From assembly GCA_024637225.1 (NCBI GenBank), contig JAGXFP010000047.1, positions 1-64,000 of the forward strand: 64,000 bases of DNA, written 5' to 3'. How positions within the stretch are numbered: position 1 is the stretch's first letter; each line of letters opens with the position of its first letter. Source of the DNA: Desulfobacterales bacterium (lineage in GTDB: Bacteria > Desulfobacterota > Desulfobulbia > Desulfobulbales > JAGXFP01). The notes beneath the pieces are model-generated. The model did not search any database. It was not told the origin of the DNA and saw only the letters and a list, made by a program, of their open reading frames with translations. Of the stretch, positions 14,141-61,818 are shown one piece after another. Position numbers and translations under genes: made by a program.

Positions 14141-14314
14141 GATGGCGTCGCAAAAAGTCGAAAAAGGGGTTGGCTAAGCAAAAATCGTCAGATCCAAGCG
14201 CGCGTAAATTTCGAGGAATGAAGCGTACTTCAGTACGCTGCAATGACGAGACAATTTGCAGCAACGCAGGAGCTGGCGATTTATGCCCTTGAGGGTGCTT
14301 TTTGCGACGCCATC
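14141..14314. repeat. Repeat family A copy 1 (MITE-like, 174 bp)
   Basis: Terminal inverted repeats GATGGCGTCGCAAAAAG / CTTTTTGCGACGCCATC, flanked by 6-bp direct repeat AAGTTT (14135-14140, 14315-14320). Confidence 0.85.
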
Positions 14315-14419
14315 AAGTTTGACACGAGCGGTCCGGCCGGGTAATAGTGCGGCGAGAGCAAAACCGCTGATAATTCGCAAAGGCTGGCCAATACCGGCGG
14401 CAGCCGGAACAAACGGAAC

Positions 14420-18645: not shown

Positions 18646-18795
18646 GATGCGTTCGCAAAAAGTCTGGGGATGGCTAAGCTAAAATCGTCAGATCCAAGGC
18701 GCGCAAATTTCGAGGAATGAAGCGTACTTCAGTACGCTGCAATGACGAGACAATTTGCAGCAACGCCGGAGCTGGCGACTTTTTGCGACGCCATC
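18646..18795. repeat. Repeat family A copy 2 (150 bp)
   Basis: GATGCGTTCGCAAAAAGTC ... GACTTTTTGCGACGCCATC, flanked by 7-bp direct repeat AATCCTT (18639-18645, 18796-18802). Confidence 0.85.
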
Positions 18796-19654
18796 AATCC
18801 TTCCAGATCGACAGGGCTCGGCTGTACACCTCGGATCGGGATATGTTCAGATCAGCCGCGATTTTCCGGCAGACATCCCGCATGGAAAGATCGGATTGGT
18901 CCCGATACCAGGCCAGAATATCCTCAAGTTCACCTCCGGTCGGACCTTCGTTTTCAGAGGCGGCCGGGCCGACGATCACCACAAACTCGCCCTTGATCCG
19001 GGGCCGGGCGGCCAGATCGTCAAGGACCGAAGAAAGACGCGCATGGAACAGTTCTTCATGGAGCTTAGTCAGCTCCCGGCCGAGAAAAACAGGGCGGTCT
19101 CCGAAAACCTCGAGACATTCCCGCAGGGATTTGATTATCCGGCGGGGCGATTCATAGAAGAGCAGGGGCCGGCCCGCCTCCAGCAGACCCTGGAGGAGAC
19201 GGCGCCGTTCGCCTTTCTTGCCGGGCAAAAAACCGAGAAAGATGAAGCCTCCCTCTTCAAGACCCGCCACGCTGACTGCGGCGGTCAGGGCCGACGGCCC
19301 GGGGATCGGCACAACCCGGATCCCCTCGCCGATGGCCTGCCGGACCAGAACGGCCCCCGGATCGGACACCGCCGGCGTACCCGCGTCGGAGACCAGCGCC
19401 ACATCCTCCCCCCCGAGTAGTTTTTCGATAACCTGCCGGGAGCGGCTGAACTCCTGTCCCTTATAGTAGCTGACCAGAGGGGTATGAATATCGAGACTGG
19501 TCAGCAGCTTTCTGGTATGCCTGGTATCCTCGGCCGCGACCAGGGCGACCTCGCTCAGAATCCGGATTGCCCTCCGGGTGATATCCTCCAGATTGCCGAT
19601 CGGGGTGGCCACCACATAGAGCACGCCGGAACCCTCACCCTGAGCGCTTTTCAC
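18794..19654 (-). CDS. rsmI: 16S rRNA (cytidine-2'-O)-methyltransferase
   Basis: GVLYVVATPIGNLEDITRRAIRILSEV...AEDTRHTRKLL...SDAGTPAVSDPGAVLV. Confidence 0.96.
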   Translation of the reverse strand: MKSAQGEGSGVLYVVATPIGNLEDITRRAIRILSEVALVAAEDTRHTRKLLTSLDIHTPLVSYYKGQEFSRSRQVIEKLLGGEDVALVSDAGTPAVSDPGAVLVRQAIGEGIRVVPIPGPSALTAAVSVAGLEEGGFIFLGFLPGKKGERRRLLQGLLEAGRPLLFYESPRRIIKSLRECLEVFGDRPVFLGRELTKLHEELFHARLSSVLDDLAARPRIKGEFVVIVGPAASENEGPTGGELEDILAWYRDQSDLSMRDVCRKIAADLNISRSEVYSRALSIWKD

Positions 19655-20610: not shown

Positions 20611-20652
20611 TTGACACCGGCGCCGCTGGCTGTTAGTATATGAGCATATACT
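20611..20652 (+). promoter_or_regulatory. Sigma70-type promoter overlapped by ArsR/SmtB-type operator
   Basis: TTGACA (20611-20616), 17-bp spacer, TAGTAT (20634-20639); perfect inverted repeat AGTATATG-AG-CATATACT at 20635-20652. Confidence 0.75.
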
Positions 20653-20669
20653 CACATGCAAGGTGCCGA

Positions 20670-21038
20670 ATGAACAAACTCCAGGAAGACGCCTGTCTAT
20701 GCCGGATAATCCATACCGATCGGGTTGAAAAAGCCCGCCGCGCCGCGCTTGAGACGAGGGAGCACCAAAGATTGACCAATATATTCAAGGCCATGGGCGA
20801 TCCGACCCGTTTACGGATCCTGTTCGCCCTCTCCCAGGAGGAGATGTGCGTCTGCGACCTGGCCGCCTTCCTGGATATCACCGAGTCGGCCGTCAGCCAT
20901 CAGCTGCGGATGCTCCGCCAGCTTTATCTGGTCGCCAACCGCCGCCAGGGTCCGGTCCTTTATTACCGCTTAACCGACGAACATATCAGCCGCTTGATTG
21001 CTATCGGCCTTGAACATCTCAGGGACCTGAATCCATGA
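20670..21038 (+). CDS. ArsR/SmtB family metal-responsive repressor (CadC/ZiaR-like)
   Basis: CLC near N-terminus, CVCDL alpha-3 motif, SAVSHQLRMLR recognition helix, C-terminal DEHISRLIAIGLEHL alpha-5-like site. Start at 20670 preferred because ATG 20640 lies within the operator, upstream of the predicted TSS. Confidence 0.9.
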   Translation: MNKLQEDACLCRIIHTDRVEKARRAALETREHQRLTNIFKAMGDPTRLRILFALSQEEMCVCDLAAFLDITESAVSHQLRMLRQLYLVANRRQGPVLYYRLTDEHISRLIAIGLEHLRDLNP

Positions 21039-21266
21039 CGGCTTTGTGGGGAATTTCACTTTATCCGTTTGTAATTGCATTAGATAATGCTTTTTCTCTG
21101 GATTGCCATGGTTCACCCCGCCGCTCTGCAGAGCGCCCGATAACGGCGCATCTGCGTCCCGCAGCCCTTGGGGTGCCGCGTTGGCAACTTGTTGATATAC
21201 CATTAGTATTATCAACATTGTTGCCGCCTTGCATCTGCACCGTTCTCGAAAGCTCACGGTTTCAGG
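21026..21266. repeat. Repeat family B copy 2 (inverted relative to copy 1)
   Basis: CCTGAATCCATGACGGCTTTGTGGGGAATTTCACTT ... CACCGTTCTCGAAAGCTCACGGTTTCAGG is nearly the reverse complement of 24297-24515, plus a small internal insertion. Confidence 0.88.
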
Positions 21267-22653: not shown

Positions 22654-24309
22654 TTGATTTGTCGCCCTTTACAAATCGAGAATTACGGTGGACGCAAAAT
22701 GGTCTGCGAACAACCTGCATTCAATATAAGCAAAGATAAATTCGAAGGCATCCTCTTCGACCTGGACGGAGTGGTCACCAAAACCGCGAATGTGCATGCG
22801 GCCTCCTGGAAGAAACTCTTCGACGAATATCTGGAGGGGCGGGCCGGGCCAGACGGGAAGTGGCAGCCCTTCGACCTCGATTCCGATTACAGCACCTATG
22901 TCGACGGCAAGCCGCGCTATGACGGAGTTGCGAGCTTCCTTAAATCTCGAGGCATCGTTTTGCCTTACGGCAACCCGGGTGACCCCGTGGATGCCGGGAC
23001 GGTCTGCGGCCTGGGCAACAAAAAGAATCAAATATTTAACGAGCATCTGCAAAGCCATGGCGTCGAACGTTATGAAATTGCCGTTGAACTGATCCGCCTA
23101 CTCAAGAAAAACGGCTTCAAGACCGGGGTTGTCTCTTCCAGCAAAAATTGCCGGACCGTGCTTAACGCCGCCGGCATCGAAGAGTTATTCGATGTGCGGG
23201 TCGATGGCGTCGTTTCCGAACAACTAGGTCTGAACGGCAAACCGGCGCCGGATATTTTCCTTGAAGCAGCCCGACGCCTTGAGGTATCCCCCGCCCGGGC
23301 AATCGTCCTGGAAGACGCGATATCCGGAGTTCAGGCCGGCAGCCGCGGCCATTTCGGCTGCGTTATCGGAGTGGACAGAAGCGGCCGCGCCGAAGCCTTG
23401 CAGGAACAGGGCGCCGATGTCGTGGTAAAGGTGCTTTCCGAACTTACGGTGGAAGGGCAAATTCCCCTTTGGGAACATGACATGGAAGAGCTGCCGTCGG
23501 CGCTGGCCTCCCTTCCCGAGATCCGGAAGCTGCTCGCAGCCAGGCAACCTTTCATTGCCCTTGACTATGACGGCACCTTGACTCCGATCGTCGAAAGTCC
23601 CGAACTGGCGAATCTGTCTGATGAAATGCGCGACGCCGTCGTGACCCTGGCCGATAAATCCGTGGTAGCGATAATCAGCGGCCGCGACCTGAGCAATATC
23701 AAAAAACTTGTCTCAATCGACAGCCTGTTCTACGCGGGAAGCCACGGCTTTGACATCTCCGGTCCCGCCGGCCGGCGACTCGGTTCGCAGCAGGGGGTTA
23801 AATTTCTGCCGGTTCTTGATCGCGCCGAACAAAAACTCCGGACCCTGTTGGACAATATCCCGGGCACCCTGGTCGAACGCAAAAAATTTTCCATCGCGGT
23901 CCATTTCCGAAAGGTGGCTGAAGAGAAGTTACCGGAGGTGGAAGCGGCGGTCGCTCAAGTCCTGGAATCCCATGCCGGACTTCGCAGAAGTTCAGGTAAA
24001 AAAATCTTCGAGCTGCAACCGGAAATCGACTGGCACAAGGGTAAGGCCCTATGCTGGTTGATGGAGGCCCTTGACCTGAACCGGCCCGAGGTTCTGCCCT
24101 TCTACCTCGGCGACGACCTTACCGACGAAGACGCATTCGGGGTTCTCCAGTCCGAAGGGATCGGCGTGGTCGTAAAGGGTGATGAAGCGGATGCGGCCCC
24201 ACGCACTTCGAGAGCTCGATATGTGCTGGAAGACTGTCGACAGGTCAGGGATTTCCTAGAAGCGCTTAGCGGAATGCTTCAGGAGAAAACCGATGACCTG
24301 AATCCGTGA
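22654..24309 (+). CDS. Fusion of HAD beta-phosphoglucomutase-like domain and trehalose-6-phosphate phosphatase (OtsB-like)
   Basis: N-term GILFDLDGVVTKTANVHAASWKKLFDEYL...VLEDAISGVQAG; C-term FIALDYDGTLTPIVESPELANL...VAIISGRDLSNIKKL...LGDDLTDEDAF. Alternative start ATG 22699. Confidence 0.88.
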   Translation: MICRPLQIENYGGRKMVCEQPAFNISKDKFEGILFDLDGVVTKTANVHAASWKKLFDEYLEGRAGPDGKWQPFDLDSDYSTYVDGKPRYDGVASFLKSRGIVLPYGNPGDPVDAGTVCGLGNKKNQIFNEHLQSHGVERYEIAVELIRLLKKNGFKTGVVSSSKNCRTVLNAAGIEELFDVRVDGVVSEQLGLNGKPAPDIFLEAARRLEVSPARAIVLEDAISGVQAGSRGHFGCVIGVDRSGRAEALQEQGADVVVKVLSELTVEGQIPLWEHDMEELPSALASLPEIRKLLAARQPFIALDYDGTLTPIVESPELANLSDEMRDAVVTLADKSVVAIISGRDLSNIKKLVSIDSLFYAGSHGFDISGPAGRRLGSQQGVKFLPVLDRAEQKLRTLLDNIPGTLVERKKFSIAVHFRKVAEEKLPEVEAAVAQVLESHAGLRRSSGKKIFELQPEIDWHKGKALCWLMEALDLNRPEVLPFYLGDDLTDEDAFGVLQSEGIGVVVKGDEADAAPRTSRARYVLEDCRQVRDFLEALSGMLQEKTDDLNP

Positions 24310-24515
24310 GCGTTCGAGAACGGTGCAGATGCAAGGCGGCAACGACGTTGATAATACTAATGGTATATCAACAAGTTGCCAACGCGGCAGATGCGCCGTT
24401 ATCGGGCGCCCCGCAGGGCGGCGGGGTGTACCATGGCAATCCAGGGAAAAACGATTTTCTAATGCAATTACAAACTGATATGGTGAAATTCACCACGAAG
24501 CCGTCACGGATCCAG
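24297..24515. repeat. Repeat family B copy 1 (219 bp)
   Basis: Ends CCTGAATCCGTGA / TCACGGATCCAG; flanked by 6-bp direct repeat CGATGA (24291-24296 and 24516-24521). Confidence 0.88.
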
Positions 24516-24517
24516 CG

Positions 24518-26929
24518 ATGAGTAAATGGTCATTGATATATGAAGGTTTCGAGCCGGGAAAGGAGGATCTGCGCGAAGCATTGTGTACCCTCGGCAATGG
24601 CTATTTTGCCACTAGAGGCGCAGCGGCGGAAGCGGAGGCCGACAACACCCATTATCCGGGAACCTATCTCGCCGGCGGCTACAATCGTCTGAAAACGGAG
24701 ATCGCCGGCCGGGTAATCGAAAACGAAGACCTGGTGAATCTGCCGAACTGGCTGCCCCTCACCTTTCGTATTGATGACGGGGAGTGGTTCGATCTGAAAT
24801 CGGTTGAAATCCTTTCCTATCGACAGGAGCTGGATATTAAAAATGGCCTGCTCCTGCGGAATGTGCGTTTCCGGGATGAGAAAAAGCGGCTGGTCACCAT
24901 GCAAAACCGGCGCCTGGTCCATATGGGAAATTATCACTACGCGGCCCAGGAGACCACTCTGATCGCGGAAAACTGGTCGGGCCGGATCGAGGTGCGCTCC
25001 GCACTGGACGGCCGCGTGATAAACGCGGGGGTGGAACGCTATAAAGAACTCAACGCCAAGCACCTTGAACCGCTTGATACCGAAAAGCTGGACGAAGAGA
25101 CGATTTACCTCGAAGTCCGAACCAGTCAGTCAAGGACCAAAATTGCCCAGTCGGCGGCAACTCGAATATTAAAAAAGGGCCGGAGTTTACCCCTGAAACG
25201 GACCACGGTTCGGGAAAGCGGCTATATCGCTCAGCATTTCACGCTGGAGATCGCGGAGGGGGAATCGGTCACCATTGAAAAAATTGTTGCCCTGTTCACC
25301 TCCAGCGATCGCGGCATCTCGGAATGCGGCCTCTCCGCGCGCGAGGCCCTCAAGCAAGTGGGATCTTTCGCGAATCTGCTCGAAAGTCACGTTCTGGCCT
25401 GGAAGGATTTATGGCGCCATTTCGAGTTAAAATTTGAGTCGAACAAAAACAGCAAGGGAGATCGCACCCCCCGTATTCTCCACCTCCATATATTTCACCT
25501 GCTCCAGACCACCTCCCTGCACACCAAGGATCTGGATGTTGGGGTCCCGTCCCGAGGATGGCATGGAGAGGCTTACCGGGGCCATATCTTCTGGGATGAA
25601 CTCTATATTTTCCCCCTCCTTAACTATCGGATCCCCGCGATCACCAAGTCCCTTCTCATGTACCGTTACCGCCGTCTGGATGCGGCTCGCAAATTGGCAA
25701 GGGATACGGGACACCAGGGTGCCATGTATCCCTGGCAAAGCGGCAGCAGCGGCCGCGAGGAAAGCCAGCAGCTTCATCTCAATCCCAGGTCCGGACGATG
25801 GCTTCCCGACAACTCTCATCTCCAGCGCCATATAAACGCGGCAATTGCCTATAATCTCTGGCAATACTACCAGGTAACCGGGGACAAGGAGTTCCTCTCC
25901 TTTTACGGGGCGGAAATGCTCTTTGAACTCGCGCGTTTCTGGGCAAGCGCCTCCACCTATAATGCCGAGGCCGGCCGCTACGAAATCCTCGGGGTCATGG
26001 GTCCGGACGAATACCACGACGCTTACCCCGATTCGACAAAACCGGGCTTGAACAACAACGCCTATACGAACATTATGGCGGTCTGGGTATTGAGCCGCGC
26101 CCTGGAACTGTTTGAGATCCTAGACGAGGTTATCTGTCGGGGACTGTGCGAAAAGATCAAGATCGGTGAGGATGAAAAGCGGCTGTGGCGGGAAATCACC
26201 CGCAAGATGAAAGTGCCTTTTCACGACGACGGAATCATCAGCCAGTTCGAAGGCTACGAGCACCTGCACGAATTCGACTGGCAGGCACACCGGGAAAGGT
26301 ACGGTGACATCCAGCGCCTGGATCGGATCCTGGAAGCCGAAGACGATACGCCGAACCGCTACAAGGCGTCAAAACAGGCCGATGTGCTGATGCTTTTTTA
26401 CCTTTTCTCCTCAGAGGAGTTGCAGGAGATTTTCGAGGGACTGGGCTACCCCTTCGAATATGAAACGATTCCCAAAAACATCGAATATTACAACAGCCGG
26501 ACTTCCCACGGCTCCACCTTGAGCCGGGTCGTCCACGCCTGGGTGCTGACCCGGTCGGACCGGGCGCGTTCCTGGAAGTTTTTCCTGGAGGCCCTGGAAA
26601 GCGACGTGAACGACATCCAGGGGGGGACCACGCCCGAAGGCATCCATCTCGGCGCGATGGCCGGCGCGGTGGACATCCTTGACCGCGCCTATACGGGCCT
26701 GACGGTCCGAAACGATGTGCTGTGGTTTAACCCCGTTCTGCCGGAGGAAGTCGGCAGGCTGCATCTACACATCCGCTTTCGCGGTCACTCGCTGGAAGTT
26801 GATATAACCGGGAAAAAACTCCAGATCCGAGCCCTGGCTTGTGCCGGCAGACCAGTAAAGATCGGCTTTATCGACCGGGTTTTTGAGCTCAAAATGGGCA
26901 AGGATCTTGACTTCGAGTTGAGCAGCTAA
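24518..26929 (+). CDS. Glycoside hydrolase family 65 protein (trehalose/kojibiose/nigerose phosphorylase-like)
   Basis: 803 aa; GRHIFWDE-like YRGHIFWDELYIFPLL, GVMGPDEYHD catalytic region, TSHGSTLSRVVHAW, EGIHLGAMAGAVDI. Confidence 0.92.
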   Translation: MSKWSLIYEGFEPGKEDLREALCTLGNGYFATRGAAAEAEADNTHYPGTYLAGGYNRLKTEIAGRVIENEDLVNLPNWLPLTFRIDDGEWFDLKSVEILSYRQELDIKNGLLLRNVRFRDEKKRLVTMQNRRLVHMGNYHYAAQETTLIAENWSGRIEVRSALDGRVINAGVERYKELNAKHLEPLDTEKLDEETIYLEVRTSQSRTKIAQSAATRILKKGRSLPLKRTTVRESGYIAQHFTLEIAEGESVTIEKIVALFTSSDRGISECGLSAREALKQVGSFANLLESHVLAWKDLWRHFELKFESNKNSKGDRTPRILHLHIFHLLQTTSLHTKDLDVGVPSRGWHGEAYRGHIFWDELYIFPLLNYRIPAITKSLLMYRYRRLDAARKLARDTGHQGAMYPWQSGSSGREESQQLHLNPRSGRWLPDNSHLQRHINAAIAYNLWQYYQVTGDKEFLSFYGAEMLFELARFWASASTYNAEAGRYEILGVMGPDEYHDAYPDSTKPGLNNNAYTNIMAVWVLSRALELFEILDEVICRGLCEKIKIGEDEKRLWREITRKMKVPFHDDGIISQFEGYEHLHEFDWQAHRERYGDIQRLDRILEAEDDTPNRYKASKQADVLMLFYLFSSEELQEIFEGLGYPFEYETIPKNIEYYNSRTSHGSTLSRVVHAWVLTRSDRARSWKFFLEALESDVNDIQGGTTPEGIHLGAMAGAVDILDRAYTGLTVRNDVLWFNPVLPEEVGRLHLHIRFRGHSLEVDITGKKLQIRALACAGRPVKIGFIDRVFELKMGKDLDFELSS

Positions 26930-31821: not shown

Positions 31822-32014
31822 TGACATGTTTGCAAAAGTCAAAAATGGGATGGCTAAGCATGCAATACCCTTTGCGGGTGAAAATCGTCAGATCCAAGGC
31901 GCGCAGATTTCGAGGAATGAAGCGTACTTTCAGTACGCTGCAATGACGAGACAATTTGCAGCAACAAAGGAGCTGGCGATTTATGCCCTTGAGGGTGCTT
32001 TTTGCGACGCCATC
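31822..32014. repeat. Repeat family A copy 3
   Basis: Shared core AAAATCGTCAGATCCAAGGCGCGCAGATTTCGAGGAATGAAGCGTACTTTCAGTACGCTGCAATGACGAGACAATTTGCAGCAAC; right end GCTTTTTGCGACGCCATC; left end degenerate. Confidence 0.8.
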
Positions 32015-32062
32015 AAATACTAACCAGACCATATATATACTAACCCATTCCAAAGAGTCCGG

Positions 32063-50575: not shown

Positions 50576-51823
50576 CGACTGAAAATCATCGATTTGTAAG
50601 CGATCATCAAGGATGCCGGGAAGCTCGCCGGCGAAAGCGCGCAGAACCGGAAAACGGCGCCCGCCCGGTTCCTGTAAAATCCTATGCAGGCTGAGCGCCG
50701 CCGGGGCCAAAAAGGCGCGAAAAAAAGGTTTGCGCCTCACCCCGGAGAGAAAGGCGAAGGCGCCAAGGATCTGGAGGTTGCGCTGGATGGAAAGCAGATA
50801 ATAACTCTCGATCGTAAAAGCGGCCCCTCCTCCGGGATATCCAGCCAGAACCTCGTTATATTTTTGCACAAGCCGCTCCTGGACCTGGGTCGACAGCGAC
50901 ACATAAGGATCGATCAACAGCGAGGCCAGATCATAACCGAGCGGCCCGAAACGCCCCCCCTGGAAATCGATGACCCGGAGGACGCCGTTATGGCGCATGA
51001 GATTGCGGGACTGAAAATCCCGGTGCAGAAAAAAACCGGCCGGGGCCGCCGAAGCCAACTCGGCCAGCTCAACAAATTCTTCGGCTAGCCCGGGTGGCGC
51101 ATCAATCCCCAGAAGCCCCCGGCAAAATGACTCCAGAAAATAACCGGACTCGCGGGAAAGCATGAGCCGGCGATCATATATTCCGGTTTGCCAACACCAT
51201 TCCGCCTGAAAACCTTTGCCGCCGACCACCTGCATCCGGGCCAGAAGGACCACCGCCTCTTCGTAGACCGCGATCAGCCTCTCATCCGGCCACTCGCCCG
51301 CTGGTAAGCGATCACAGGGTACCGAATCTGCTGTGTTATCGGCCTGCTCATGTACACCAGTACCCATCGCAGGCCGATGCCTTGCATCTCCACCACCCTG
51401 TAATCGCTTACAGTCTTGGAGATTCGCCAATTCTGGGCAGCTTGTCCCGTGATCGGTTACACCGATTGTAATCTCGTCATGCAGTAACACGGCGCCCAGG
51501 TCTTCACAGGCGATAACCCCGGTTTCGGAATCATAGGCGAATATCTCGGGAACCTGCACCCCGCTACGGCGCAGATGACCACCGATCAACCGGGTCGAAC
51601 GGGATTCAGCCAGGCCGTGTTCAGCGGAGCGGTTCGGTAAAATCAAGACCAGGGAATGTTGCTTATGCTCCGCCCGATAGAACCGGCGTTCGGAGCCGTC
51701 CCCGGCCAGCAGGCTGAGTTCAGCTTTGCGAGGATCGAATCCCGCTTCCAGGAGCAGCTTCGCGACGGCGCACCGTTCGGGCGCGGTTATGTTAACCGCA
51801 AGATCAATCGACAACGATCTCAT
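50570..51823 (-). CDS. amgK: AmgK-like sugar kinase (aminoglycoside phosphotransferase family), carrying an in-frame repeat insertion
   Basis: LLAGDGSERRFYRAE...FFLHRDFQSRNLM...LRVIDFQGGRFGPLGYDLASLLIDPYV; ATG 51823 near the murU-like stop; repeat-derived 53-aa segment internally. Confidence 0.8.
   Translation of the reverse strand: MRSLSIDLAVNITAPERCAVAKLLLEAGFDPRKAELSLLAGDGSERRFYRAEHKQHSLVLILPNRSAEHGLAESRSTRLIGGHLRRSGVQVPEIFAYDSETGVIACEDLGAVLLHDEITIGVTDHGTSCPELANLQDCKRLQGGGDARHRPAMGTGVHEQADNTADSVPCDRLPAGEWPDERLIAVYEEAVVLLARMQVVGGKGFQAEWCWQTGIYDRRLMLSRESGYFLESFCRGLLGIDAPPGLAEEFVELAELASAAPAGFFLHRDFQSRNLMRHNGVLRVIDFQGGRFGPLGYDLASLLIDPYVSLSTQVQERLVQKYNEVLAGYPGGGAAFTIESYYLLSIQRNLQILGAFAFLSGVRRKPFFRAFLAPAALSLHRILQEPGGRRFPVLRAFAGELPGILDDRLQIDDFQSP
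51304..51460. repeat. Repeat family R copy 2 (long form), inside amgK-like CDS
   Basis: GTAAGCGATCACAGGG ... internal CCCTGTAATCGCTTAC ... CCCGTGATCGGTTAC; same arrangement as 61656-61818. Confidence 0.88.
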
Positions 51824-61644: not shown

Positions 61645-61655
61645 ATTGATTAAGG

Positions 61656-61818
61656 GTAAGCGATCACAGGGTACCGAATCTGCTATGTTATCGACCTGCT
61701 CATCTCATGTGCATCAGTACAAATCGTGCAGGCCGATGCCTTGCATCTCTGGCACCCTGTAATCGCTTACTGCTGGGAGATTGGCCAATCCTGGGCGACT
61801 TACCCCAAGACAGCTTAC
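61656..61818. repeat. Repeat family R copy 3 (long form, intergenic)
   Basis: GTAAGCGATCACAGGGTACCGAATCTGCTATGTTATCG ... CCCTGTAATCGCTTAC ... CTGGGAGATTGGCCAATCCTGGGCGACTTACCCC; near-direct flanks GATTAAGG / GATTAACG. Confidence 0.85.

Follow-up and report, generated by a model that had tools for sequence, protein, structure and literature searches.

A MITE in the overlap of two genes

We found that a MITE of 220 bp, a mobile element with no conserved open frame, separates a HAD/trehalose-phosphatase gene from a GH65 glycoside hydrolase gene in the window (the whole 64-kb stretch of DNA that was analysed). In the explanation that we hold to be highly probable, an IS1380-type, non-autonomous MITE entered the ATGA overlap of these two genes, a separate deletion changed the end of the phosphatase, and the link of GH65 to its upstream gene was weakened. 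The 5-bp target duplication would have spanned the whole ATGA, so that the phosphatase kept its stop TGA in the left GATGA and GH65 its start ATG in the right one. A separate 1-nt deletion upstream would have shifted the phosphatase frame, which would run past the old stop to the TGA of the terminal repeat and end in DLNP*. The insertion would also have displaced the GH65 Shine-Dalgarno by about 220 nt and placed a stably folding RNA between the cistrons, with the most likely outcome that GH65 translation became weaker or less coupled. Comparison of the sequences established the identity of the MITE, the family-wide duplications, the empty sites, the 1-base difference and the loss of the Shine-Dalgarno, and the order of insertion and deletion and the effect on GH65 expression are inferred. 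The features of the locus are as follows.

22654 to 24309, plus strand: HAD/trehalose-phosphatase gene with two domains, the upstream gene (open reading frame; Pfam Trehalose_PPase, E 3.5e-52, and HAD hydrolase; choice of start codon uncertain), ending ...EKTDDLNP* with its stop in the terminal repeat
24281 to 24285, plus strand: AGGAG (in AAGGAG), the ancestral GH65 Shine-Dalgarno, which lies within the 3' end of HAD; the GH65 ATG is now about 220-230 nt away
24292 to 24296: left copy of the target duplication GATGA, containing the ancestral HAD stop TGA, now one base out of frame
24297 to 24516, plus strand: IS1380-type MITE, non-coding, 220 bp, delimited by the family-wide termini and duplications
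24297 to 24309, plus strand: terminal inverted repeat at the left end, CCTGAATCCGTGA, which the HAD frame reads as (GA)C CTG AAT CCG TGA (D L N P stop)
24306 to 24521, plus strand: 71-aa open frame with its GTG over the HAD stop and its TGA over the GH65 ATG, judged to be no gene
24504 to 24516, minus strand: right terminal inverted repeat TCACGGATCCAGC (family consensus TCACGGATTCAGG)
24517 to 24521: right copy of the target duplication GATGA, containing the GH65 start codon
24518 to 26929, plus strand: GH65 glycoside hydrolase gene, 803 aa, the downstream gene (Pfam GH65 catalytic, N-terminal and C-terminal domains)

Extent and copy number of the element

An earlier note on this DNA had described an element of 219 bp (24297-24515) flanked by a 6-bp repeat, CGATGA. 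The element between the HAD and GH65 genes, its terminal repeats and the two copies of CGATGA are all present as claimed; the size was one base off. The boundaries were set here by the rule of the family, namely the 13-bp terminal repeat CCTGAATCCGTGA at both ends of its members together with 5-bp duplications, which gives 220 bp and GATGA. The last base of the focal element is C where the family has G, and the extra matching C of CGATGA is thus the mutated terminal base of the element.

An exact motif count gave 138 occurrences of CCTGRATCCRTGA in the 3.28-Mb genome and none of the reversed pattern, so that the repeat family is far beyond chance. Approximately 40 copies of the element were detected in the same genome by blastn, and at least 64 non-redundant copies with paired termini were found there, ranging from 40 to 282 bp and mostly of about 130 bp or 218-225 bp. 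In about 30 of the paired copies, the flanking 5-bp duplications agree at four or five positions (for example, ATATA/ATATA, TTCTT/TTCTT and TAATA/TAATA). In a copy of 136 bp (L058:1955-2090), the duplicated sequence is AAGGA, by which the Shine-Dalgarno of the downstream gene was duplicated and retained.

Relationship to IS1380-family transposons

Transposons of the IS1380 family (PF13701) in the related genome G006 are 1674 bp long, and both of their termini are identical to CCTGAATCCGTGA at 13 of 13 positions; two of these copies (at L133 and L134) have clear 5-bp duplications, TTGAT and TATTA. In one PF13701 transposon of G038, one terminus matches at 13 of 13 positions and the other at 12 of 13. 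The focal element is classified as an IS1380-type MITE because the transposons of these relatives, which belong to the same order, carry the identical terminal repeat and duplications of the matching length. It differs from them in its size of 220 bp, in having no transposase gene, and in an interior that is unlike the IS sequence just inside the termini. We infer from this likeness that an IS1380 transposase would have mobilised the MITE. No PF13701 match was found in the genome's own assembly (G000; 87.9% complete, 74 contigs) or in that of the congener G001, both of which are drafts in which absence is weak evidence, and single termini in the own assembly, followed up as leads to an autonomous copy, led to ordinary genes only. 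A transposase in the same genome is not a strict requirement for a MITE that has lost its source IS.

MITEs with the same termini and duplications are present in several other families of the order; a sample of 198 genomes from the phylum has almost none. They define an IS1380-type MITE family that is spread over an order of Desulfobacterota-like bacteria. A literature search, with most subscription papers outside its reach, gave no paper on a bacterial IS1380 MITE family among the results listed, and this particular family may, on such weak evidence, be undescribed.

The ancestral junction and the 1-base deletion

The empty site was found in three relatives (L106/L107, which are two contigs of one MAG, L108 and L109), in which GH65 is 74-77% identical. 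In each of these, the HAD stop TGA overlaps the GH65 ATG as a 4-base ATGA (CTTCAAGGAGAAAGCCGATGAGC in L108), and the same overlap is seen in the more distant L111 (59%). At the GH65 locus, the closest relatives with a name are MAGs assigned to Desulfobulbaceae/Desulfobacterales. We relied on relatives at 74-77% protein identity because a deletion in the congener G001 spans the locus; there the locus is deleted or rearranged and gave no empty site. In that genome (L044, G001:C177), HAD and GH65 are joined by the deletion, with a short junction sequence that has inverted GGGGTCAATTCTTTATT-like ends, and another repeat may have been involved.

The focal flank CTTCAGGAGAAAACCGATGA is one base shorter than the HAD 3' end of the relatives (CTTCAAGGAG / CTTCAGGGAG). 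Over positions 24270-24300, CTTCAGGAG would give the DLNP* ending and CTTCAAGGAG would give a HAD stop inside the GATGA copy; without the 1-base deletion, the focal HAD would stop at the TGA of the left GATGA. As the earlier note had stated, the terminal repeat is the current stop of the upstream gene, CTG AAT CCG TGA giving DLNP*, and the target duplication contains the GH65 start codon, which lies in the right GATGA copy. The note had also reconstructed an ancestral HAD ending DE* at a TAA. This follows from the letters of the focal sequence, but the relatives show HAD ending at the TGA of the ATGA overlap, and the DE*/TAA junction GATGAGTAA could have existed only if the deletion preceded the insertion. 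An assembly error in the draft genome could account for the 1-nt deletion; the element would then supply no stop at this locus.

Since the old stop TGA and the start ATG are both contained in GATGA, the insertion alone would have been silent for both frames. An overlapping gene pair has few points at which an insertion breaks neither frame; thus, a surviving insertion at ATGA is what selection predicts.

Translation of the GH65 gene

The calculated energy of pairing with the anti-Shine-Dalgarno at the GH65 start is -3.3 kcal/mol at present, compared with -7.4 kcal/mol in the reconstructed empty site and -8.0 to -10.6 kcal/mol in L106, L108 and L109; the mean of random sites is -3.0 kcal/mol. 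GH65 translation is likeliest to be reduced or altered after the insertion. A polar effect on the mRNA or an internal promoter is possible, and a scan of the element for promoter and terminator patterns gave single weak matches on the minus strand, at chance level, and no promoter on the forward strand.

It had been proposed that the insertion preserves translational coupling: HAD would end at GTGA, the 71-aa frame would be translated, and ribosomes would re-initiate at ATGA on GH65. The open frame at 24306-24521 and its GTGA and ATGA overlaps exist as claimed, the frame is open throughout the element, and the element plus duplication amounts to 225 nt, a multiple of three. Furthermore, the GH65 start now has no good Shine-Dalgarno of its own, and some re-initiation could matter. 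However, 26 of the 33 full-length copies interrupt the 71-aa frame and only 7 leave it open, and the family consensus has a stop in it. Substitution rates at its three codon positions (0.113/0.092/0.127) show no clear bias, and it has no Pfam match. Its GTG is about 20 nt from the nearest Shine-Dalgarno, the intercistronic RNA is strongly folded, and the match in phase hangs on the separate 1-base deletion. With the Shine-Dalgarno displaced, the pairing energy near the random mean and the frame interrupted in most copies, we consider preserved coupling quite unlikely; the insertion probably weakened the link between HAD and GH65. A version limited to this locus, in which the element acted as a ready-made coupling cassette and the 71-aa frame relayed ribosomes from GTGA to ATGA in place of the lost Shine-Dalgarno, seems to us very unlikely.

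Stop codons supplied by the terminal repeat

From either end, the terminal repeats stop two of the three frames within 13 nt. Across the 64 copies, a terminal repeat supplies the stop codon of ten genes. The stop is at nt 13, in the LNP*-type phase, in six of them (DLNP*, DLNP*, RLNP*, HLKP*, ILKP* and ILNS*) and at nt 5 (CC-TGA) in the other four; none is read in the open phase. Nine of the ten have a Pfam match, the exception being a 60-aa frame at L049. None of the 64 copies is inside a gene, where genes were called with a simple codon-usage gene finder and single boundaries may be off.

One of the six endings at nt 13 belongs to a gene next to a second copy in the window:

21026 to 21266, minus strand: second MITE copy, between an ArsR-type regulator gene (20640-21038, ending HLRDLNP*) and an ArsP_1 permease gene

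The ArsR orthologs in the congeners G001 and G002 (L146 and L144) have no element and end in HLRE*, which gives an independent empty site. For the copy at L080, an empty site was found in a congener (L143, 93% identity).

The flanking genes of 59 copies are co-directional in 38 cases, divergent in 14 and convergent in 7, and the intergenic bases in element-free gaps are distributed as 61%, 27% and 13%, respectively. An enrichment of copies between co-directional genes, on which the earlier note had made its reading depend, is not borne out by 38 of 59 (64%) against 61% of the intergenic bases. Of the 30 insertions between co-directional genes, 14 are no more than about 13 nt from the stop of the upstream gene, compared with 11.0 expected if insertions were uniform over the tolerated sites. 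The supply of stop codons is recurrent; its number and the gene orientations match the neutral expectation, and no special targeting is needed.

An alternative would be a benign "gene-end" element, whose terminal repeat evolved, or was selected, for providing stops or for inserting where genes end. The closing of two frames within 13 nt, the ten of 64 copies that supply a stop, and the lack of open-phase cases among the ten, which has a probability of (2/3)^10 = 0.017 if phases are random, would suit such a role. However, the excess near upstream stops is that of 14 over 11.0, the gene orientations are in line with the shares of intergenic bases, and the same terminus is present on the IS1380 transposons of the order, which points to the transposase-bound sequence. 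We therefore regard selection for gene ends as highly improbable and prefer the neutral account given above.

Structure of the element

The predicted fold of the element's RNA is far more stable than those of shuffled sequences (z-score -5.4). Its 5' half forms a long imperfect hairpin, in which 97.8% of the cells are paired over 39 copies. In the same 39 copies, seven pairs of the hairpin have changed on both sides, compared with a mean of 1.2 in shuffles, although this control ignores relatedness. Positions with G-U number 9 and those with A-C mismatches 8; since these are about equal, nothing indicates that one RNA strand has been under selection. The pattern of the hairpin may derive from a palindrome at the DNA level or from shared ancestry among subfamilies. 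In copies from other families of the order (L038 and L039, in G011 and G036; alignment A1, columns 1-139), the first 130 bp are alike, with covariation in the hairpin, and the 3' third of the element is much more variable than these 130 bp.

It is conceivable that the element is a structured RNA or regulatory module, conserved and dispersed in the form of a MITE, and that in operons it regulates the downstream gene. The high proportion of pairing in the 5' hairpin, the double-changed pairs and the similarity across families of the order agree with this idea. On the other hand, G-U positions barely outnumber A-C positions, copies occur in both directions relative to genes, the excess of double changes comes from a control uncorrected for relatedness, and Rfam has no match anywhere in the 64-kb window. 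We consider a regulatory RNA of this kind unlikely, and a non-coding MITE remains the preferred reading.

Comparison with known elements

The arrangement had been thought not to have been described for such an element, but there are reports of MITEs within operons and of repeats that provide stop codons. The Chunjie MITE of Geobacter uraniireducens is about 235 bp long and has tens of full and partial copies, one of them inside an operon (Chen et al. 2008, as cited in PMC10969869 and PMC5896051), the structure of which is undisturbed according to the title of that paper. As far as these citing papers describe it, Chunjie resembles the focal MITE in size, in copy numbers and in having an operon copy, a likeness by description only. 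In Streptococcus pneumoniae, 36 genes have their stop codon encoded by a BOX repeat at the extreme 3' end; BOX repeats can also give rise to expressed open frames within operons, and for three annotated frames of BOX origin the direction of the RNA contradicts the annotation (PMC3049150). BOX and the focal MITE both supply stop codons, but BOX is an unrelated modular repeat, likened here by description only. In Coxiella burnetii, QMITE1 and QMITE2 are MITEs located at the 3' ends of genes, where they alter C-termini and stops (PMC5896051); they differ from the focal MITE in size and in their duplications of 2-3 or 7-11 nt, and they too are likened by description only.

The present locus is a clear and checkable case of how two genes with an ATGA overlap can take up a transposon that duplicates 5 bp and keep both frames unbroken, and it shows how terminal repeats become C-termini (DLNP*). 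It reveals no new mechanism and is a neat but ordinary case of a known type of insertion.

Other repeats in the window

A second dispersed repeat family (TTCAGTACGCTGCAATGACGAGACAATTTGCAGCAACG...), of about 130 bp, has three copies in the window, at 14182-14316, 18681-18815 and 31881-32016. Another repeat, of about 110 bp, has two copies, at 51303-51411 and 61655-61770; their outer parts are nearly identical (GGTAAGCGATCACAGGGTACC... / ...CACCCTGTAATCGCTTAC) and look like the inverted termini of another small element.
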